A stretch of DNA of 64,000 bases from Candidatus Nitrospira nitrosa (GTDB lineage: Bacteria; Nitrospirota; Nitrospiria; Nitrospirales; Nitrospiraceae): positions 992,001 through 1,056,000 of the forward strand of contig NZ_CZQA01000001.1 in the NCBI RefSeq assembly GCF_001458735.1, given 5' to 3'. The notes below the pieces were generated by a model. That model was not told where the DNA came from. It did no database searches and worked only from the letters and a program-made list of their open reading frames with translations. Positions 187 to 9,044 of this stretch are shown here, piece after piece. The translations under genes and the position numbers were made by a program. Position 1 is the stretch's first letter; each line of letters begins with the position of its first letter.

Positions 187-587
187 TCTTCCTGCAGTAG
201 CTTGCGCCATGCTGGTGTTCTGGTAGGTACGTCCTGCGCGCTTGTTTATTCATACTCTGGATCTTGAGCCTGTGGCACATCCGACCAGTTCCCAACGATG
301 GGCTGTGGACGAATACCGTGAGGTAGCATAGACCCTGATCTGGTTATCCTGTGACGAAGTGGATGCGAAGTCGAGGTAGCATGCAGGCTGGAGTGTGGTA
401 AACCGCTTACCACCGCCTACTACCCAGAGCCCAATCGGAATGTGAGCGGGTCAATGTTATTGCAGGCTCATCTGATCGTCCAATTTTTGAGAGAACTTCC
501 GGCCCTCGCCGCGTAATGCCACCAAAGAGCAGCATCGGAACGGTCTGGGCCGGAGATTCTTTTGGCGTGTCGATCAGGACGAACTAC
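187..587. other. Intergenic stretch without a recognised gene
   Basis: About 400 bp between the partial left-edge ORF and the stop of the RRM gene. I see no convincing coding frame, tRNA or terminator. The segment around 495-590 (cttccggccc then agattct and ttaccagcgatcg) is partly repeated near 1432-1470, where a broken copy of the RRM gene end lies. Confidence 0.4.
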
Positions 588-911
588 TTACCAGCGATCG
601 CGCTTTCCACCACGGCCACCGCCGCCGCCACCACCGAAACCACCACCACCGCCGCCAGAACGTTCCATTGGTTTCGCTTCATTGACCGTTAACGTGCGGC
701 CACCCATCTCTGACCCATGGAGTGCCGTGATTGCCGCGGCTGCCTCAGCATCCGAAGACATCTCCACGAAGCCAAATCCACGCGACTGTCCCGTGAACTT
801 ATCCGAGATGATCTTTGCCGAGGCCACCGTGCCATGGGCCCCGAATGTGTCAGACAATTGCTGCTCGGTCACCGAATACGGCAACCCACCGACGTAAAGC
901 TTTGAACCCAT
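588..911 (-). CDS. Glycine-rich RNA-binding protein (single RRM)
   Basis: A 107-residue protein made of one RNA-recognition motif followed by a glycine-rich tail. RNP2 is LYVGGL (residues 5-10) and RNP1 is RGFGFVEM (44-51); residues 85-102 are almost all glycine, ending in GKRDRW. This layout matches the small bacterial RRM proteins related to cyanobacterial Rbp, which bind RNA and are often cold-inducible. ATG at 911 was chosen over an upstream in-frame start because an AGGAGGA-type ribosome site lies just before it and the fold begins at once (MGSKLYVGG). A truncated relic of the same gene lies near 1432-1550. A hairpin at 1067-1101 lies upstream and could affect expression, which is inference. 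Confidence 0.9.
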   Translation of the reverse strand: MGSKLYVGGLPYSVTEQQLSDTFGAHGTVASAKIISDKFTGQSRGFGFVEMSSDAEAAAAITALHGSEMGGRTLTVNEAKPMERSGGGGGGFGGGGGGGRGGKRDRW

Positions 912-1066
912 CTTGGGCTCCTCCTGTGATGATGATATTGTCCATGACGCGAGAGGGTATCGTAAAAGGAAGGCGCGACCCAAGGATGGTCCGGTGTAAC
1001 GGGGCTCAGGCTCGACGTCCAATCACAGTCTCGGCAGGCACAACATCGATAATAGGCCGTCTTACG

Positions 1067-1189: not shown

Positions 1190-1207
1190 AGGCCTCCGGT
1201 CAGGCCT
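1190..1207. repeat. Short palindromic repeat, copy 1 (18 bp)
   Basis: AGGCCT-CCGGTC-AGGCCT, a self-complementary hexamer pair around a 6-nt loop. The identical 18 bp recur at 5971-5988. Both copies lie in non-coding sequence of the tRNA-Glu-linked accessory region. Confidence 0.6.
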
Positions 1208-1342
1208 GATCATAGGGGATGAGCGACGGCTTTCTAGGAAAAATTAAGCCTTCCAGGCTACGCCGGTGAGCAAGCTAAAGGGAGAGAAGGTCTACCGCTT
1301 TGAAGGCGAAGCTGCAGTGAATTGATTTTTCAATAGGTTAGC

Positions 1343-1394
1343 GTGCATTGAAAGGTGTGGTGTCCCCAAACCGGACATACACCTTTCAATGTCA
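1343..1394. repeat. tRNA-Glu-derived attachment-like site, copy R1 (most diverged)
   Basis: Contains GTGCATTGAAAGG and the tRNA-Glu 3'-end piece ggtgtccccaa (1359-1369). The core is bracketed by a perfect 11-bp inverted repeat, CATTGAAAGGT at 1346-1356 and ACCTTTCAATG at 1381-1391. The 50 bp to its left (gctttgaaggcgaagctgcagtg...) are a diverged version of sequence left of R2 and R3. Read as the boundary between two integrated cassettes; the tRNA homology and arms are seen, recombination is inferred. Confidence 0.7.
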
Positions 1395-1429
1395 CGTTGG
1401 GGGTATCCCGTCATCGCTCTTTCGGGGGA

Positions 1430-1550
1430 AATTCCGGCCCGAGAATCGTCGCAGGTTACCAGCGATCGTGCCTTCCACCATGTGACTGTCCCGTGAACTT
1501 GTCGGAGATGATCTTTGCAAAGGCTACCGTGTCATGGGCCCCGATGTCTC
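1430..1550 (-). pseudogene. Relic of the RRM-protein gene
   Basis: The stretch ttaccagcgatcgtgccttccacca is near-identical to the 3' end of the RRM gene at 588-612. It then jumps to sequence matching about 784-850 (gactgtcccgtgaactt, gagatgatctttg, tcatgggccccga). The central part, including the glycine-rich tail and RNP1 region, is deleted. Homologous non-coding sequence (gaaattccggccc) precedes it. No usable reading frame remains. It lies directly beside R1, so cassette movement or recombination between tandem copies probably created it. Confidence 0.7.
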
Positions 1551-1707
1551 GGTCTTTCCTGCGCAGCCGATACACACCACAAGCTTTAACATGAAGGGCC
1601 AAACAACGGCGCCGCCAAAATCAGCCGTATGGACAAGGCTCCGACGACTACACTACGGTAATAATGAGAGTGGCAAAGGCAAAGGCGTCAGGACCATGTG
1701 GTGCGTA

Positions 1708-2235
1708 TCAATGAACTCCGATTGTTCCTCCCGCATAGTTGCAGTTTGGGCGGATATCAGTAAATTCTGCACCAGTTGCCTGACCGTTCTGGTTCGGCTC
1801 AACTGCAAGGCGAATGTCAAAGGGCGTATCAGTGCATTCAGTTACTAGGATAGTTTGCCACTTCTTTTCATTAAAGCATGTCTCATAATTCTCGTTACAT
1901 GTTCTACATGTCTTAGGGATGCTAAACCATTTCCCGTACTGGCCGTTTTGAGGTTTAATCGATGCTCGGACAATGCAGTCCGATGTCATGTTAAGTAGGT
2001 TAAGCTTCCACGGGTTATCCTTTGCTGCTTGAGACTCTTGAATTGATTCGACTTCTGTAACGTCCATTGGTGTAAGAGACTTGAGATCATCGATTCCCGA
2101 TGTAAAACCTGTGGATGCGGCTTTAGAGCCAACGGAGTTTGTGCCAGCCATTTCCATCGAATTACAGCCGACAAAAGTAGTTGTACAAAGCATCATTACA
2201 GCCATTGGCCAAGATGTGACACGCCTAAAAATCAT
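1708..2235 (-). CDS. Small cysteine-containing lipoprotein, unknown function
   Basis: A 175-residue protein when started at the ATG at 2235, which follows GGAGGTG by six bases; an upstream in-frame ATG overlaps that ribosome site and is unlikely. Residues 1-25 are a lipoprotein signal with basic n-region, hydrophobic core and a lipobox ending FVGC. The mature part has an acidic linker, then a compact domain with several cysteines (SDCIV, KTCRTCNENYETCFNEKKW, TECTD, RPNCNY) that could form disulfides in the periplasm. I do not recognise the family. It is cargo of cassette B next to the FRG gene; its composition looks more AT-rich than the housekeeping genes. Confidence 0.75.
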   Translation of the reverse strand: MIFRRVTSWPMAVMMLCTTTFVGCNSMEMAGTNSVGSKAASTGFTSGIDDLKSLTPMDVTEVESIQESQAAKDNPWKLNLLNMTSDCIVRASIKPQNGQYGKWFSIPKTCRTCNENYETCFNEKKWQTILVTECTDTPFDIRLAVEPNQNGQATGAEFTDIRPNCNYAGGTIGVH

Positions 2236-2569
2236 TTTTAACACCTCCATTAGTTGAGCAAGAACATCTACTTATTAACAGGCCAATCTAGCTGCTTGTT
2301 GAAGATGTGTCCAGTCCTCTTCAGACTAAGGACATTCATGCCGTATTAAGTAGACCTTGATGGCCTAATCTTCATCCGTTTCTGTAGCTAGGGAGTGAAG
2401 GAGGCGAACCTACGGCCCGCTGATTAAGAGTCCCGCCCCTATTCAATCTCAGAACACTCAGGATACCCAAAACACCGAATCTCCATCGGTCAGCGAGGAT
2501 GAGACATGAAAGGATGTCATCCTAGTTGCCTGGCTCAGTGCGTTTGGCACCAGCTTGGCACCAAGCTTC
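2236..2569. other. Intergenic stretch carrying a tRNA-Lys fragment
   Basis: This 334-bp gap between two minus-strand genes has no credible ORF. Its one recognisable content is the 28-nt tRNA-Lys piece listed separately at 2405-2432. Confidence 0.4.
2405..2432 (-). repeat. 28-nt fragment of tRNA-Lys(CTT)
   Basis: Read on the minus strand this is identical to the tRNA-Lys at 12487-12562 from the anticodon arm through the variable region into the T-loop (GACTCTTAATCAG, then CGGGCCGTAGGTTCG). The rest of the tRNA is missing. Such a 3'-half fragment is the usual footprint of an integrative element that used a tRNA gene. It is inverted relative to the intact copy, so the two cannot be the simple direct-repeat ends of one element. 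Confidence 0.75.
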
Positions 2570-3409
2570 TCACGTTGAGTGGAACATTTCCCATCCATCT
2601 TTTGCTTGGTCGAAGATTACAGTCCTCTGTCTTTGCCGATTTCTTGGTAGGCCGAACGTTTCCATGAGGCTTTCCTCGCTCCCAAACAACGAGGATGCTG
2701 TCACATTCATACGTTGCAAACTTATCAAAACTTTCTCTCGCTCAGTCGTGGGAAGAATGTATTTTATCATTACGTCTTGCGGGCCCCCGCCGGTGACAAT
2801 CCCGATCTGATGGCTTTCATAGAAATCACCCTCCTGGTCAGCGACTTTGCAGATTGTATATTCGCACTGTTGAGCATAGTGGCGCTTGTGGCTGATTACA
2901 TAGGGGCCCAACCCATGAATGCTAGGAATGTCTGATGCCCAACCTTTGGCTTCGCCTATATATTCAGTAAACGCGTAGATGGCAACCTTTTCTTTCTCTG
3001 GGCTCCCGTTTGGTCTGAAGGCAAAGTATGCGGCGACGTAAGGTGAGCGGGTCCAATCAAGCAACGGTGATGGAAACCCATGATGCCGCAGATAAATCAT
3101 GAATTCGTACCCGGATGGAACAGAATCTTCAGGATCGAAGCTTTGAGGGAGGTCCCACTCTTTTCCGGTGAGTGAAATGACTGCTGGTCTTACAGCACGA
3201 ATGGCGGCGAAGTATTCTTCTCTTCCAAATCTTCGTTTCGCGAAGCGATCTAACGTCGTTTCTAGCTCCCAGGTTGCATCCGATTGTCCTCTAAAAATTG
3301 GCGTGGAAACGTGCAACGGCTTTTGGGTCTTCCTGAATTCCTCTATCCGACTGAATAGGCTTGTGATCCTAGCTTCAAACTTTTCCCAACTATCGAGTTC
3401 CATCTCCAT
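2570..3409 (-). CDS. FRG-domain protein
   Basis: A 279-residue protein. The FRG domain (PF08867) is clear: IFRGQSDATWEL near residue 40 and YLRHHGFPSPLLDWTRSP near residue 105, followed by VAAYFAF. No signal peptide or membrane segment is visible. The biochemical activity of FRG proteins is not settled; they are frequent in mobile and defence islands. ATG 3409 follows AAGGGGGTG; a GTG one codon upstream and another ATG two codons downstream are alternatives. It is cargo of cassette B with the lipoprotein downstream. A defence or anti-element role is inference from context only. Confidence 0.85.
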   Translation of the reverse strand: MEMELDSWEKFEARITSLFSRIEEFRKTQKPLHVSTPIFRGQSDATWELETTLDRFAKRRFGREEYFAAIRAVRPAVISLTGKEWDLPQSFDPEDSVPSGYEFMIYLRHHGFPSPLLDWTRSPYVAAYFAFRPNGSPEKEKVAIYAFTEYIGEAKGWASDIPSIHGLGPYVISHKRHYAQQCEYTICKVADQEGDFYESHQIGIVTGGGPQDVMIKYILPTTEREKVLISLQRMNVTASSLFGSEESLMETFGLPRNRQRQRTVIFDQAKDGWEMFHST

Positions 3410-3568
3410 CACATTGCACCCCCTTGGGTTTGGAATAAACCTGAGGAGATGGGACGATCATAGCGGCAGGGCCTCAATGCCTGCAATGGTTGGCCCGTTG
3501 ATTGCCTATCATAGGAATGGTCATTGCATACTTCATGGGGCGTGGCTCCAAAGGCCTGTAATGTCACC

Positions 3569-3899
3569 TGTATACATCCCCCCAAGCCTCAGCATACGAT
3601 GGTCCCGCGTCCTGCTTGTGACGTGGAGACCCGAGCGAAGGGCTGATCCCTCCGTGTCGGCGACCGGAACCTCACCGGACGCGGGGTTGTCCTTTTTCCA
3701 TACGGATCTGTGGGGGAGAGGGGCATGGACCGACCAACAAAACCACTGTGCACCAGCTCACACCACACATGCCCCCGCGCTGCGCCCACGGTGCGGGCTC
3801 GCGACTGGCGACACACAACAAAGGAGCCACGCGATGAGTGACCGCTACCTCGACGAAGACGAAAGCTTTTCGGCTACAGTGATGATGAGGTGAGAGGTA
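3569..3899 (+). repeat. ~330-bp cassette-end leader, copy 1
   Basis: Aligns along its whole length with 7127-7453 (diverged in the first two thirds, almost identical from the gactggcgacacac segment onward). It ends with a ribosome site, a 19-codon mini-ORF and the GTGAGAGGTAGAGACG sequence that runs into R2. It lies at the same place in both cassettes, just before the tRNA-derived site. GC-rich inverted segments (cctcaccgg...) suggest structured RNA. Confidence 0.7.
3834..3893 (+). CDS. 19-residue mini-ORF in the cassette leader, copy 1
   Basis: ATG at 3834 follows AAAGGAG by eight bases and encodes MSDRYLDEDESFSATVMMR, then TGA. A second copy at 7389-7448 keeps the ribosome site, length and all but two residues (DENKS instead of DEDES). 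It could be a leader peptide, a tiny cassette protein, or the truncated start of a longer gene cut by recombination at the adjacent site. Only the repeat and good ribosome site support translation. Confidence 0.4.
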   Translation: MSDRYLDEDESFSATVMMR

Positions 3900-3956
3900 G
3901 AGACGCGTTATTGCTTCAAGGAGAAGCCGCTGTGGGTAAACCTCTCAATTGCTTAG

Positions 3957-4009
3957 GTGCATTGAAAGGTATTGGTGTCCCCAATCGGAATGTCAGCCTT
4001 TCAATGTCG
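3957..4009. repeat. tRNA-Glu-derived attachment-like site, copy R2
   Basis: GTGCATTGAAAGG then ATTGGTGTCCCCAA (the tRNA-Glu 3' end, core 3974-3984). A perfect 10-bp inverted repeat, CATTGAAAGG at 3960-3969 and CCTTTCAATG at 3997-4006, brackets the core. The left flank from 3890 onward matches the left flank of R3 (8731-8826) almost base for base. Interpreted as the junction between cassettes A and B. Confidence 0.75.
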
Positions 4010-4233
4010 CCATTGGCCCACTTCGTGGTCCCATTTTCTGGGACAGTCACGACGGCGGCATGAACATTGGCGCAGCCCCTTTCAAATCCCAGGATCCAAC
4101 TGTACAGAATGAGACTATCCAATACTAAAGCGACCAGGTTTAAGACTGCCGATCGCAGGATGCTACCAAGGATGAATTTACCGGGATAGACTGGCAGCAA
4201 GGCGGTTTGCCAATGGTTGCTCTCGAAGTCACA

Positions 4234-5769
4234 CTAAAATGAGCGAGTCATTCGTTCATAATTGAAACTTCCAACTATCATCAGAATGAGCCCCATGCAA
4301 AATAGCGGTATAACATATAGTAGCGTCCCATAGAAGTAGTAGAAGGGCAGAATAATCAAATGCCATCCCAGCATAAGGGTTCCCGTTCCATGTAGAAAGA
4401 GACCCCAGTAGCGCATATGATAATAGCCAAAAATTCCCGCGAGTGACAAAAGTACGAATAGCCACTGATTCAGAGGCTTGAGGAAATATGTAGCTGATCC
4501 AAATGGTTGTGAAATCATTAAACCCGCATAGCCGGAGACAAGGAGTAGATTGCACAAAGATAAGATCGTTATGGAGCGAGGCCTTTGAACCTGTAATAAC
4601 GAGTTGCTATCAGTGGAACTATTTGGCAGCTGATCTCGAGAATAAACTATATCAGTTGTTTCTTGCTGGCGAGTATTCAGGTTCTGGAGTATCTGCAAGA
4701 CACTCCTTCGAAAGAAAATCCTAAAGCGAAAACTTACCTGTTGAACGGCTGCAACCTTACCAGACACATCAAAGGTAAACAGCGCCCCCTTCTTTTTGTA
4801 TTCAGGGAGAGTTATCCCTTCCTTGCTGAGTTCTGTTGTTGCTTCCTGCCATAGGTTGACCCAGTACTGTGTCCTTGTTTTCTCCGGCGGCATGACATAA
4901 ATACACTTACGAAACATGCCGTTGGATTTCAACCAACTGATTTCCCACAACGTCCCTGCGCGACTAGAAGGTAGTATCAATATGACTGAAGCTGTTCTTG
5001 CGAGTAATATAAACTTATTGTGCCAATCTTCCTCCGCAACATACACTCTGCCAGCACCTACATTTTCTCCTGGTTTACCCAGTGCAACCATGGGACCTAT
5101 GTTCTTGAGCGCGCTAGCAAAATAATCCTCTAGCTCGTATGTGTTAATCCTAAGGCTGAATGGGCTAGCGAACAATGACGGTGCTTGTAACTGTCCGGTG
5201 CTACTAAACGGTCTGAGAAAGAGAACAAATGACGTTTTGGTGGTCAAAGATGAGTCCTGAATATTTGCCAGCACTTCGGCAGCCAATCGGTCTCTTGCTG
5301 TTTGTTCGACTAGCAAGAAAAGTGTAACCGGAACGATCGCCATCAATCCTATCGGCCTAGCAATGTTCTGAGCATCTATTTGCAGAATCATAGCGTCAAA
5401 GTCGCCTCTGAATTTGAGCACATCGAAAAACCTAAGAATTCTTGAAGGCAACGTTGATTTTCCTCCATACTCACCACTGAAGGGCCCATAATAATCGTCA
5501 AAAATTCCGTATACTCCACCCAAATTAGAGCTGTTAGCCAATAGCCAATAACTTATCAGAGATGTGCTACATCCAATATAAGCTAGGAACAATAGTGACC
5601 GCTGACGTGGAGTATCAAAGAGCACAGGGAGTCTTTCTCGTACGAAGGCCAATCTTGGTGAACGCAGCAAGAAGTTCTGTTGCGCCCTAATAGCCCAAGA
5701 ACCGAACCAAAAGAGGACAGGGAGAACCAGAAGCCAAAAAATGACAAATTCCTGCAAATCACTAAGCAT
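4234..5769 (-). CDS. Multi-pass membrane protein with a TIR-like Rossmann domain
   Basis: 511 residues from ATG 5769 (a TTG five codons upstream is possible). Two to three N-terminal membrane helices (FVIFWLLVLPVLFWFGSWAI, then LLFLAYIGCSTSLISYWLL and MAIVPVTLFLLVE) precede a soluble domain of about 200 residues. That domain has VLFLRPF, a GKPGENVGAGRVYV loop, AEEDW and a strand VILILPSS followed by LWEISWL. This pattern recalls TIR/SEFIR-like nucleotide-binding folds of membrane proteins. At least three more C-terminal helices follow. It is AT-rich and cargo of cassette A. A role as a membrane effector is inference; I cannot name a characterised family. Confidence 0.7.
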   Translation of the reverse strand: MLSDLQEFVIFWLLVLPVLFWFGSWAIRAQQNFLLRSPRLAFVRERLPVLFDTPRQRSLLFLAYIGCSTSLISYWLLANSSNLGGVYGIFDDYYGPFSGEYGGKSTLPSRILRFFDVLKFRGDFDAMILQIDAQNIARPIGLMAIVPVTLFLLVEQTARDRLAAEVLANIQDSSLTTKTSFVLFLRPFSSTGQLQAPSLFASPFSLRINTYELEDYFASALKNIGPMVALGKPGENVGAGRVYVAEEDWHNKFILLARTASVILILPSSRAGTLWEISWLKSNGMFRKCIYVMPPEKTRTQYWVNLWQEATTELSKEGITLPEYKKKGALFTFDVSGKVAAVQQVSFRFRIFFRRSVLQILQNLNTRQQETTDIVYSRDQLPNSSTDSNSLLQVQRPRSITILSLCNLLLVSGYAGLMISQPFGSATYFLKPLNQWLFVLLSLAGIFGYYHMRYWGLFLHGTGTLMLGWHLIILPFYYFYGTLLYVIPLFCMGLILMIVGSFNYERMTRSF

Positions 5770-6142
5770 TTGTAGGGGTCCCAAGATGGCTAAACGAGCT
5801 GCGATGTTATATCAGAACTACCATTCTGAATAACGAGTAACGCAACATAATGTTAAAGAACTACATGTAAATCAAGAGAGGGAGTTCCGGTCTGCGAAGA
5901 CGGCGGTGAGAGCAGGCTCCAGCGAGGCAGCACGAGCCCTCCCCGTATTGAGTGAGGATCTCGCCCAGTTAGGCCTCCGGTCAGGCCTTACCATGTGAAG
6001 GGCTCGCTCCATCCAGGGGCGGGCCCTTGTATTTTGCGAGATTTCGCGTACCTTTCTTATTTGGTATCATACAAAATGTTGATGGCCTGCGCATTTTGTT
6101 TGATTGGACTTGCTCTCAACGTAGCCTGCAACAGGATAATGA
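5770..6142. other. Intergenic region between divergent cassette genes
   Basis: 373 bp between the minus-strand membrane protein and the plus-strand DUF4238 gene, so it should hold both promoters. It contains the second AGGCCT palindrome (5971-5988) and a GC-rich stretch (gggctcg, gggcgggccc). No ORF is credible. Confidence 0.4.
5971..5988. repeat. Short palindromic repeat, copy 2 (18 bp)
   Basis: Identical to 1190-1207 (AGGCCT-CCGGTC-AGGCCT). Flanking sequences do not match beyond a few bases, so it is a small mobile or regulatory motif rather than part of the larger duplication. Confidence 0.6.
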
Positions 6143-7042
6143 ATGACTAATAACCCTCGCGCCCATCATGTGGTTCCCGAGTCATACCTAGAACGGTTTA
6201 CCGATTCCTCAGGGTTTCTCCATGTGTATGATCGAACTGGTGATAAAAAATATAAGACACGACCAGATAACGTCATGCATCAACGCGACTATTACCGACA
6301 AGAATGGGCGCCAAAAGGCGTCGATCCGAACATATTCGAGAAGAAATTAGGAGAGTGGCTTGAGAATTCGGCCAAGAACACTATCGATCAGGTTATTGGT
6401 AACTCGCCGAATCTAACCGAACAGCAGGGTAGTGAGTTCCTTCTCTATCTAGAACTCCAACGAATTAAGGTTCCTAGGCAAAGCGTAATGGCGACGACCC
6501 TTATGCTTGACACGATCATGAAGTTGGCTCCTTCTGATCTGACGGATGCTGTCCGAACGGGCAAAATCCAACTCACGATAAATAAATCCGCTCACTTTCA
6601 CTACATGCGGATGATGCTGAAACAACTTATTCCCTGGTTCGCCGCTATGGAATGGGAAATCGTTACAGCTGATGAAGAATCATCGTTTATAACGACTGAT
6701 AGCCCAGTGTCTCTTTTTAATGTAGCGTGCCGTCCTCCTGCAGAACCAGGTATGGCATTGGCTGGAACAAAGGTTCTGTTTCCACTGACCTCGAAGCACC
6801 TTCTTATTCTACAACATCCTCGCCATCTTCGATCTAGGCCCCCATTGGAGGTCTTGCCTCATCCGGGGGAAATGGAAGACCATCTGCATCGAATAGATCG
6901 TGGCAGAGTATGGAACAAAAAGGCTGTCACGAGTCACAATCACGCAATGTTCCGGCTCGCGGATCGATTGATTGTGGGTAGTAGCTTGGAACAGCTCGAT
7001 GAATGTATCTTTCTATTATCCCAACCTATAGCCACTACGTAA
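6143..7042 (+). CDS. DUF4238 family protein
   Basis: 299 residues from ATG 6143 with AGGATAA upstream. The N-terminus has the family's hallmark: NNPRAHHVVPESYLERF then LHVYDRTGD and a DYY motif near residue 51. The paired histidines followed by VPxxYLxxF are typical of DUF4238 (PF14022). A later FITTDSPV strand-loop is also shared by members I know. The activity is uncharacterised to my knowledge; the conserved HH could be catalytic or metal-binding. No signal peptide or membrane helix. It is cargo of cassette A, divergent from the TIR-like membrane protein. Defence function is only suggested by context. Confidence 0.8.
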   Translation: MTNNPRAHHVVPESYLERFTDSSGFLHVYDRTGDKKYKTRPDNVMHQRDYYRQEWAPKGVDPNIFEKKLGEWLENSAKNTIDQVIGNSPNLTEQQGSEFLLYLELQRIKVPRQSVMATTLMLDTIMKLAPSDLTDAVRTGKIQLTINKSAHFHYMRMMLKQLIPWFAAMEWEIVTADEESSFITTDSPVSLFNVACRPPAEPGMALAGTKVLFPLTSKHLLILQHPRHLRSRPPLEVLPHPGEMEDHLHRIDRGRVWNKKAVTSHNHAMFRLADRLIVGSSLEQLDECIFLLSQPIATT

Positions 7043-7126: not shown

Positions 7127-7453
7127 TGTACATCCCCTCTCGCCCCACCGTACGATAGCTCCCACGTCCTGCTTGTGACGTGAGACCCAAGACGCGGGGG
7201 TCGCTCCCTTGTGGCTGCGACCGGCACCTCACCGGTCGCGGGGTCTTCTCTTCCCCACGAGGACCTGTAGAGGACAGGGGCTATGCCGATCACCACACCC
7301 ACTGTGCACCAGTTCACACGACACCGCCCCCGCGCTGCGCTCATGACCAGGGCCCGCGACTGGCGACACACAACAAAGGAGCCACGCGATGAGTGACCGC
7401 TACCTCGACGAAAACAAAAGCTTTTCGGCTACAGTGATGATGAGGTGAGAGGT
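7127..7453 (+). repeat. ~330-bp cassette-end leader, copy 2
   Basis: Second copy of the 3569-3899 leader. It retains gtcctgcttgtgacgtg, the cctcaccgg segment, gtgcaccag and the cgactggcgacacacaaca block, then the mini-ORF. The IS3-family element is inserted right at its end, separating it from the remainder of the R3 flank, which resumes at 8731. Confidence 0.7.
7389..7448 (+). CDS. 19-residue mini-ORF in the cassette leader, copy 2
   Basis: ATG 7389 after AAAGGAG encodes MSDRYLDENKSFSATVMMR and stops with TGA at 7446-7448. Length and ribosome site match the copy at 3834-3893; the two substitutions (ED to EN, E to K) come from G-to-A changes. The IS insertion lies directly behind the stop, so nothing longer can be read here now. 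Confidence 0.4.
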   Translation: MSDRYLDENKSFSATVMMR

Positions 7454-7512: not shown

Positions 7513-8343
7513 CTACGCGGCAGTCCGTCGTGTGGTCAGATTGTCATAATAGACCTGGTCGGGCGTCTGGCCATCAAGCGCCTGATGCGGTCGGGTCTGG
7601 TTGTAGAACAGCAGATAGCGCTCCAGCCCCTGATAGGCAGTGCTGACCGTGTCATACGCGTGCAAATAGACCTCCTCATATTTCAGGCTTCTCCACAACC
7701 GTTCCACGAAGACGTTATCCCGCCAGCAGCCTTTGCCGTCCATGCTGATCTGAATGCCGTGGTCTTTCAAGAGTCCCGTGAACTCCTGGCTGGTGAACTG
7801 GCACCCTTGATCCGTGTTGAAGATCTCGGGGCAGCCATGCTGCGTGATCGCCTCTCGCACGGCGTCGAGACAGAAGTCCGTGGTCAACGTATTGGAGAGC
7901 CGCCAAGCCAACACTCGGCGACTGGCCCAGTCCAAGATAGCGAAGAGATACACGAAGCCGCGTCGCATCGGAATATAGGTGATATCGGCCGCCCAGACAT
8001 GATTGGGACGACAGATCGTGAGATCACGGAGGAGATACGGGTAGATGGTGTGGGCCGGATGCCGCCGACTCAGATGCGGTTTCCGATACAGCGCCTCAAT
8101 CCCCATCCTGCGCATGAGGGTGACCACCTGGCGTCGCCCAATGGCATGGCCCTCCTGCTGTAACAGATCGCGCAGCATCCGAGCCCCGGCAAAGGGATAG
8201 TTCAGATGCAGCTCGTCAATCCGCCGCATCAACGCCAGCGTCGTCTCGGAGGTCGGCGTCAGCTGGTAATAGGCGGTCGAGCGGGCCAGCTGCAGGAGTT
8301 GGCATTGCCGCACAACCGGCAAGGGATGCGTGCGATCGATCAT
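7513..8343 (-). CDS. IS3-family transposase OrfB (DDE integrase core)
   Basis: 276 residues. Retroviral-integrase-like DDE domain: first D in HVWAADITYIP, second in FNTDQGCQF, and the E in FVERLWRSLKYEE. An HTH_21-type segment (NYPFAGARMLRDLL) precedes it. The C-terminus carries FYNQTRPHQALDGQTP, typical of the family. It begins with ATG overlapping the orfA stop (ATGA), so it may be made by coupled re-initiation or by frameshifting to an OrfAB fusion. All catalytic residues are present, so the element looks intact. Confidence 0.95.
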   Translation of the reverse strand: MIDRTHPLPVVRQCQLLQLARSTAYYQLTPTSETTLALMRRIDELHLNYPFAGARMLRDLLQQEGHAIGRRQVVTLMRRMGIEALYRKPHLSRRHPAHTIYPYLLRDLTICRPNHVWAADITYIPMRRGFVYLFAILDWASRRVLAWRLSNTLTTDFCLDAVREAITQHGCPEIFNTDQGCQFTSQEFTGLLKDHGIQISMDGKGCWRDNVFVERLWRSLKYEEVYLHAYDTVSTAYQGLERYLLFYNQTRPHQALDGQTPDQVYYDNLTTRRTAA

Positions 8344-8639
8344 CGCTTTGCGCTCAGCAAGCCGGCCTTGGTGAGCGCGCCTTCTAAAAAATCATTCTCC
8401 AAGGTCAGTTGCCCGATCTTCGCGTGCAGGGTCTTGAGATCCGGAGCCTCCGCTGATGGTTTCGTCCCACCAAATACGTCCGAGGCTCGCGCCAGCAACT
8501 GCTGTTTCCATTCTGTGATCTGGGTGGGGTGGACGCTGAATTGCTCGGCCAATTCGGCCAGGGTCTTATCCCCTTTGACCGCGGCCAACGCCACCTGTGC
8601 TTTAAAGGTGGCTCCGTGATTCCGTCTCGTGCGTTTCAT
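8340..8639 (-). CDS. IS3-family transposase OrfA (helix-turn-helix)
   Basis: 99 residues from ATG 8639 (MKRTRRNHG), preceded by AAAGGAG. The N-terminal HTH of the HTH_8/IS3 OrfA type is seen in [23 protein letters not shown] and [14 protein letters not shown]; the C-terminal half is a leucine-zipper-like coil ([19 protein letters not shown]). It binds the element's ends with OrfB. Its stop codon overlaps the orfB start by four bases. Confidence 0.92.
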
Positions 8640-8730
8640 TGCCTCGCTCCTTTGTGTCGCCACCTTCCGGTGGCGTTGGTGAAGCCAGGCTCCCACTTAT
8701 CACACTGTCCGAATTTCCGAAGCCCTCTCT

Positions 8731-8826
8731 GTGAGAGGTAGAGACGCGTTATTGCTTCAAGGAGAAGCCGCTGTGGGTAAACCTCTCAATTGCTTAGGGT
8801 GCATTGAAAGGTATTGGTGTCCCCAA
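8731..8826. repeat. tRNA-Glu-proximal attachment-like site, copy R3
   Basis: Direct repeat of 3889-3984: GTGAGAGGTAGAGACGCG, ttgcttcaaggagaagccgc, tctcaattgctta, then GTGCATTGAAAGG (8799-8811) and ATTGGTGTCCCCAA, which here is the real 3' end of tRNA-Glu. Unlike R1 and R2, no CCTTTCAATG arm follows, because intact tRNA sequence does. That is what is expected for the junction of the last-integrated element with the tRNA. Confidence 0.75.
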
Positions 8827-8892
8827 CGGGATTTGAACCCGTGTTACTGCCTTGAAAGGGCAATGTCCTAGGCCAGGCTAGACGATGGGGAC
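8815..8892 (-). tRNA. tRNA-Glu (anticodon TTC)
   Basis: On the minus strand it begins GTCCCCA at 8892 and pairs with TGGGGAC at the 3' end, followed by A and an encoded CCA (8815-8817). The anticodon loop is CTTTCAA with stem GCCC/GGGC-type pairing, reading TTC. The T-arm ACGGGTTCAAATCCCGT is canonical. Its 3' end is the target reused in repeats R1 to R3. Confidence 0.95.
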
Positions 8893-9044
8893 ATGACAGC
8901 AAAGGCCAGGACGAAATGGATACCATATTCAGAGCGGTGCTGTCACTAGGGGAGGTAGCCCGCAGGTTGAGGCGGGCTTGTTTGCGAGAGTTGATCTCTC
9001 CCCTCGGTGGCTTGCGGTTGAGTATGCGGGTGCTAGTGTCTCCT

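Follow-up and report, generated by a model that had tools for sequence, protein, structure and literature searches.

The window, i.e., the whole stretch of 64,000 nucleotides of Candidatus Nitrospira nitrosa DNA analyzed here, carries an FRG-domain gene (2570–3412, minus strand) that encodes 280 aa when read from a GTG start; an alternative ATG at 3409 had been used in the preliminary description. The FRG-family assignment made there was confirmed both by PF08867 (E 3.2e-19 and 70.1 bits, with a cut-off of 25) and by PADLOC, in which 14 models of the candidate class PDC-S15 matched (best 7.8e-39). Likewise, its claim of a composition unlike that of the surroundings was borne out by GC contents of 48.2% for FRG and 44.2% for the neighboring lipoprotein-like gene, compared to 54.4% for window positions 9000–64000. 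While the core of the FRG protein is intact, its C-terminal ~27 residues were out of register with the relatives in an alignment of 65 sequences, in a frameshift-like manner, and because of this shift the window copy may perhaps be impaired; all residues invariant in the alignment precede this part.

The gene lies in an island anchored at a tRNA-Glu(TTC) gene (8815–8892, minus strand), the integration target, whose 3′ end is the putative attB core. Read towards this tRNA, the island starts with a distal R-end (430–488, plus strand) located beyond a gene for an RRM RNA-binding protein (588–1022, minus strand). An internal junction at 1359 (1269–1426, plus strand), made up of a 3′ relic of a recombinase gene, a core and an R-end, separates this RRM segment from cassette A, and has beside it a degenerate fragment of a second RRM gene copy (1456–1544, minus strand). 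The lipoprotein-like gene (1708–2250, minus strand; 180 aa, 8 Cys) and FRG follow, and then a first copy of a segment here called S (3573–3732, plus strand), which lies between FRG and the next recombinase relic. The junction between cassettes A and B at 3974 (3888–4041, plus strand) is attP-like, with inverted arms, and consists of a recombinase 3′ relic, the TGGTGTCCCCAA core and an R-end. Beyond it, cassette B (4.8 kb), which separates cassette A from the tRNA, holds genes for a 516-aa protein with hydrophobic stretches (judged by eye) and no Pfam family (4234–5784, minus strand) and for a DUF4238 protein (6143–7042, plus strand; PADLOC DUF4238-Pers), and the second copy of S (7128–7288, plus strand). 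Between this copy and the L-end lie transposase ORFs (7513–8696, minus strand), which we take to be of the IS3 family. The L-end itself (8727–8827, plus strand), with its junction at 8816, is the decayed 3′ end of a large serine recombinase (LSR) gene and reaches the tRNA 3′ end.

The repeats at ~1300–1375, 3915–3990 and 8756–8831 all end at the tRNA-Glu(TTC) 3′ end or at a copy of it. A common tRNA core, GGTGTCCCCAA, and a left arm, CATTGAAAGG, were present at the junctions 1359, 3974 and 8816, where att repeats of the target thus bound the element. The right arm, CCTTTCAATG, was found at the two internal junctions only, in the order CATTGAAAGG .. GGTGTCCCCAA .. CCTTTCAATG, and the tRNA-side junction at 8816 has the left arm alone. 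With regard to the recombinase gene, the window holds only 3′ relics. Cassette A is att-bounded cargo devoid of integrase and transfer genes, as in cis-mobilizable elements; recognized within it were the lipoprotein-like gene and FRG (ORFs searched), S, a recombinase relic and the RRM fragment. An integron-like attC array, an idea raised by the inverted arms, was dropped, as the left arm is part of the recombinase 3′ end. By eye, a lookalike of a tRNA anticodon/T-arm half (CTCTTAATCAGCGGG...) recurs beside cargo, at ~2395–2435 (minus strand) in the window and in the loci L132 and L248.

Predicted fold and role of the FRG protein

All 65 aligned FRG sequences share R41, G42, the stretch RHHGFPSP (109–116), D119, S123, A127, F130, A131, R177, H178, Q181 and Y185. 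Structural prediction, which had been proposed earlier as a check, yielded a confident model (pLDDT 91.7); the comparison of this model with known structures gave a mixed outcome. Foldseek matched nothing in the PDB at E ≤ 0.001 (best E 0.032), viral structure models gave no match at the same threshold, and no solved structure was related to FRG by sequence at E ≤ 1. In VIA-align, 49 of the 50 rows shown bore names that we took, by recognition, to be those of ART-superfamily members, with Z values of 3.0–5.8, all of them below the Z of 8 under which the program warns of chance arrangements and too low for fold proof. For the NAD-binding Arg (or His) that ART proteins carry in their first core strand, R41 would be the candidate; it falls in strand 39–43 of the model and, as judged from range starts rather than from a residue-level alignment, lies near Arg7 of the LT/CT rows. 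No Glu is invariant among the 65 sequences, and therefore the canonical catalytic Glu of ART enzymes (R-S-E / H-Y-E) is missing or replaced in this family, Q181 being invariant; as far as the alignment goes, this speaks against a textbook R-S-E transferase. Certain ART clades lack the catalytic Glu. The modelled fold and the invariant Arg would fit the ART superfamily without proving it, so that an ART fold is supported by the model, short of demonstration. This agrees with the available part of PMC9503650, in which the Frg domain is assigned to that superfamily and an NADase or antiviral effector role is proposed. The window gene is a clear sequence member of this group (PF08867, PDC-S15, Frg clade), from which it differs in its shifted C-terminus, and its activity is predicted here from sequence and model.

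In other collections, genome_contigs yielded 95 confirmed FRG relatives, of which 80 were kept, and viral_contigs yielded 11. In three of the viral contigs (L217, L222 and L224), the gene stands directly behind a gpD-like tail gene, with gpU identified in L217. A search of a phage collection gave one weak match, at 25% identity. On balance, a single-gene, NAD-using abortive defense is the role that we predict for FRG, in which the protein would most likely act alone as an NAD-consuming or ADP-ribosylating ART-superfamily enzyme that stops phage growth. Alternatively, FRG might belong to a larger system whose other members are unlinked or vary, or be an accessory toxin independent of ART chemistry. 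This appears rather unlikely, although it would agree with the lack of a significant Foldseek match and of an invariant Glu, and with the occurrence of FRG across many different contigs and phyla. Against it, the relatives are similar in length, ART names dominate the VIA-align rows, and the literature places Frg in the ART superfamily (PMC9503650, in the part available). In addition, the four window neighbors compared (lipoprotein, 516-aa protein, DUF4238 and RRM) never recurred beside FRG relatives, with zero matches among 974 ORFs from 91 FRG loci (median length 9.5 kb, shortest 3.1 kb), a set in which the motif recovered no FRG ORF at 5 of the 91 loci and a partial one at no fewer than 5 others.

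The tRNA-Glu locus across the genus

Across the genus, 35 oriented tRNA-Glu loci were compared, comprising the window, 8 of 10 fetched stretches (the other two being without the tRNA) and 26 further loci, with no flank in G052 and less than 900 bases in G044, G072 and G013. An L-end abutted the tRNA in 8 of them, while R-ends were found at 12, S at 7, an intact recombinase at 3 and the RRM gene at 13. Of the 13 loci bearing RRM, 12 also have an R-end, and this gene may be early cargo since fixed. At three loci (G057, G018 and G044), the next conserved gene lies 133–143 bp from the tRNA, and these look like empty targets. A further count concerned six query proteins, none of which occurred within 13 kb at 11 of the 35 loci, one of these 11 having no flank.

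In G019, a 574-aa recombinase with PF00239, PF07508 and PF13408 runs into tRNA-Glu, and intact large serine recombinases abut the same tRNA in G069 and G074. The translated L-end at tRNA-Glu in G013 corresponds to recombinase residues 462–563 (53% identity, 5e-27) up to the tRNA; the same C-terminal peptide was found in G011, G007, G004 and G058 and, in decayed form, at the three window junctions (frame translations). A related recombinase abuts tRNA-Ala in G013, and a frame-split one abuts tRNA-Arg in G016. In the loci L053, L057, L059, L060, L064 and L072, large serine recombinases of the genus, a frame-split one included, adjoin tRNA-Ala, tRNA-Arg and tRNA-Met, which suggests a recombinase group with a preference for tRNA 3′ ends.

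In G048, the first base after tRNA-Glu aligns with x=4843 of the window, and therefore the 4.8-kb cassette B is missing there exactly at the core. Relatives thus provide both states of the target, as G048 lacks cassette B and three loci appear empty. Given these absences and the intact recombinases at tRNA-Glu, the tRNA-anchored mobile cassette of the preliminary description holds, its junctions ending at the tRNA 3′ end, with the addition that cassette B intervenes between cassette A and the tRNA.

These data support insertion by LSR. In the mechanism that we propose, LSR elements would insert repeatedly and site-specifically into the tRNA-Glu(TTC) 3′ end and so build the island. With every insertion, the 3′ end of the recombinase gene would come to adjoin the tRNA end (the L-end), and an attP half site would mark the opposite boundary (the R-end), so that successive elements would form a tandem array in which attP-like junctions separate them. 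At the window locus, the recombinases would since have decayed to 3′ relics, and the cassettes may persist as units similar to cis-mobilizable elements. While some mobility may thus remain, present mobility is doubtful, since a search of the source genome with the G019 LSR found nothing related at E ≤ 1e-20. With regard to possible carriers, exact R-end and S patterns, which miss diverged copies, had 0 matches in viral_contigs, where no LSR relative was found either, and window positions 1200–4100 had no match in plasmids.

The tandem repeats might instead be segmental duplications of the tRNA-Glu flank that arose by homologous recombination; the RRM fragment at 1456–1544 and the two S copies show that either a duplication or a repeated arrival of the same ends took place. 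We consider an origin of the repeats by duplication improbable in view of the G048 boundary, which falls precisely at the tRNA end, the different cargo enclosed by similar ends, the intact recombinases that abut tRNA-Glu in three genomes and the existence of empty loci.

Cargo at related loci was diverse. In G011, a Panacea-domain (SocA) antitoxin-like gene (Pfam) with a small neighbor is cargo at tRNA-Glu (L041, 8421–9279), and a similar Panacea-like pair was recognized by eye in G007 (L042, 2371–3232). In G012, a DUF5131 gene and its 379-aa neighbor (L045, 5735–7616) lie between two R-end-like sites ~3.96 kb apart, in a fetched stretch without a tRNA. PADLOC gave a match for 0 of 8 cargo proteins from other cassettes.

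Segment S

Segment S, of ~155 nt and present twice in the window, lies between cargo and recombinase relic; it was also seen in the loci L041, L042, L044, L047, L117 and L132. Matches to the window repeat share 3573 as their first base in G013, G011 and G007 despite the differing cargo of these genomes, and in G048 the similarity extends beyond this edge. With regard to its predicted hairpins, 95.3% of the cells pair in an alignment of 11 sequences, and 15 cells carry a two-sided change, compared to 5.3 ± 1.7 in shuffled alignments (0 of 500 reaching the observed value) and at most 8 in slid controls; an 8-sequence set agrees (12 compared to 4.7 ± 1.5). Further pair types were not above the shuffles (155 of 500), and one slide gave 8 pairs with a two-sided change, where 7 were observed. 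Because these tests were weaker and related sequences can beat shuffles, we read the covariation as support for a structure in S and not as proof.

Of the 196 order genomes scanned with a covariance model, under stricter filters by which weak matches are lost, 12 gave S, 11 of them in the genus and one, a weak match, outside it. With G004 added by nhmmer, S occurs in 12 genus genomes, and tRNA-Glu lies beside it in the 11 that could be placed, the remaining one being G083. Against Rfam, S gave nothing at gathering score and a single match with E 8.5. Among 227 loci, none has S beside an intact recombinase. G013 and G007, which have S at tRNA-Glu, also carry an open recombinase frame at another place in their genomes, an arrangement that would allow a recombinase to act in trans on S cassettes. 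As a tentative proposal, to which we give rather low odds, the cassettes marked by S may share descent as mobile units that lack a recombinase of their own and have spread at tRNA-Glu within Nitrospira. In this view, the end of each unit would be constant and consist of S (as a structured RNA or as DNA that folds when single-stranded), the 3′ relic of the recombinase gene and the att half, and a related recombinase would act on it in trans. The cargo, e.g., FRG, DUF4238 or a Panacea toxin-antitoxin, would be swapped behind the outer S edge.

The lipoprotein-like neighbor and comparison with known islands

The lipoprotein-like ORF, so labelled from its N-terminus as judged by eye, matched neither a Pfam nor a PADLOC family at E ≤ 0.1. 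A search of 79 genus genomes placed this FRG subfamily (E ≤ 1e-40) in 5 (G000, G094, G055, G022 and G017) and gave the lipoprotein, at E ≤ 1e-6, in 3 (G000, G048 and G011), so that the source genome, G000, alone has both. Weaker FRG-family matches were more widespread (11 of 59 genomes at E ≤ 1e-5), and the source genome carries a second FRG gene. A place for FRG in core positions of the genus, which the preliminary description had named, along with a lack of co-occurrence, as refuting its reading, was looked for and not seen, as the other four genomes have the gene on other contigs or far from tRNA-Glu.

In G048, the same cassette carries the lipoprotein at 92% identity without a meaningful FRG match, ~300 bases standing at the place where the window has ~970 including FRG; this difference may reflect a gain here or a loss in G048. 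In G011, the lipoprotein is present at 80% identity and FRG is absent. A tblastn search with the lipoprotein against 97 FRG loci (the above 91 and six genus/order loci with 1.5 kb per side) gave no match at E ≤ 0.01, although it recovered both control loci. The co-occurrence in other genomes for which the preliminary description had called was therefore not found, and its suggestion of a lipoprotein–FRG unit was rejected, co-occurrence being limited to one cassette that in G048 retains the lipoprotein without FRG. A two-gene functional unit, e.g., of envelope sensor and cytoplasmic effector, is scarcely credible. In its favor are the common minus strand and cassette, the distance of 319 bp and the low GC of both genes; against it are the joint presence in only 1 of 79 genomes, the G048 cassette, and the absence of a lipoprotein relative from the 97 loci and the 974 ORFs, a comparison that covers linked partners only. 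The adjacency is a coincidence within one cassette, in which the lipoprotein is another passenger.

Taken together, with a probability of roughly three in four, FRG is passenger DNA of an island built by repeated site-specific LSR insertion at the tRNA-Glu(TTC) 3′ end, where it most likely acts alone and the lipoprotein is a further passenger. The Nitrospira island is thereby a further case of the tandem serine-recombinase islands known from Dehalococcoides ssrA. In the available part of PMC3146451, the latter (with the serine recombinase DsiB) are described as tandem and bounded by repeats of the ssrA 3′ end, and 15 islands without an integration module are proposed as possible cis-mobilizable elements that grow by accretion. 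As far as that text describes them, both kinds of island lie in tandem downstream of a tRNA-like target, with repeats of the target 3′ end and a serine recombinase at the boundary. They differ in that Dehalococcoides has ssrA as target, a 20-bp repeat and a six-gene module, whereas the window island has tRNA-Glu, small cassettes, only recombinase 3′ relics and segment S. The likeness to cis-mobilizable elements and tandem accretion, in the terms of the same text, lies in att-flanked cargo devoid of integrase and transfer genes, while for the window cassettes mobilization in trans is putative.

There is also a likeness to the P2-like prophage defense hotspots of PMC9122126, in whose available part a DUF4238 single-gene system protected against T7: FRG relatives stand behind a gpD-like gene in viral contigs, and DUF4238 occupies the neighboring cassette. 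The carrier differs, being here a tRNA-Glu serine-recombinase island and not a P2-like prophage.

In open-licence PMC papers, we found no description of a Nitrospira tRNA-Glu hotspot. The present analysis adds a serine-recombinase hotspot of this kind, documented genome by genome in states that range from empty to stacked, together with a covarying segment that has no Rfam match of meaningful score. In telling a real mobile hotspot apart from a false gene pair, it directs phage tests to FRG, and to DUF4238, singly.
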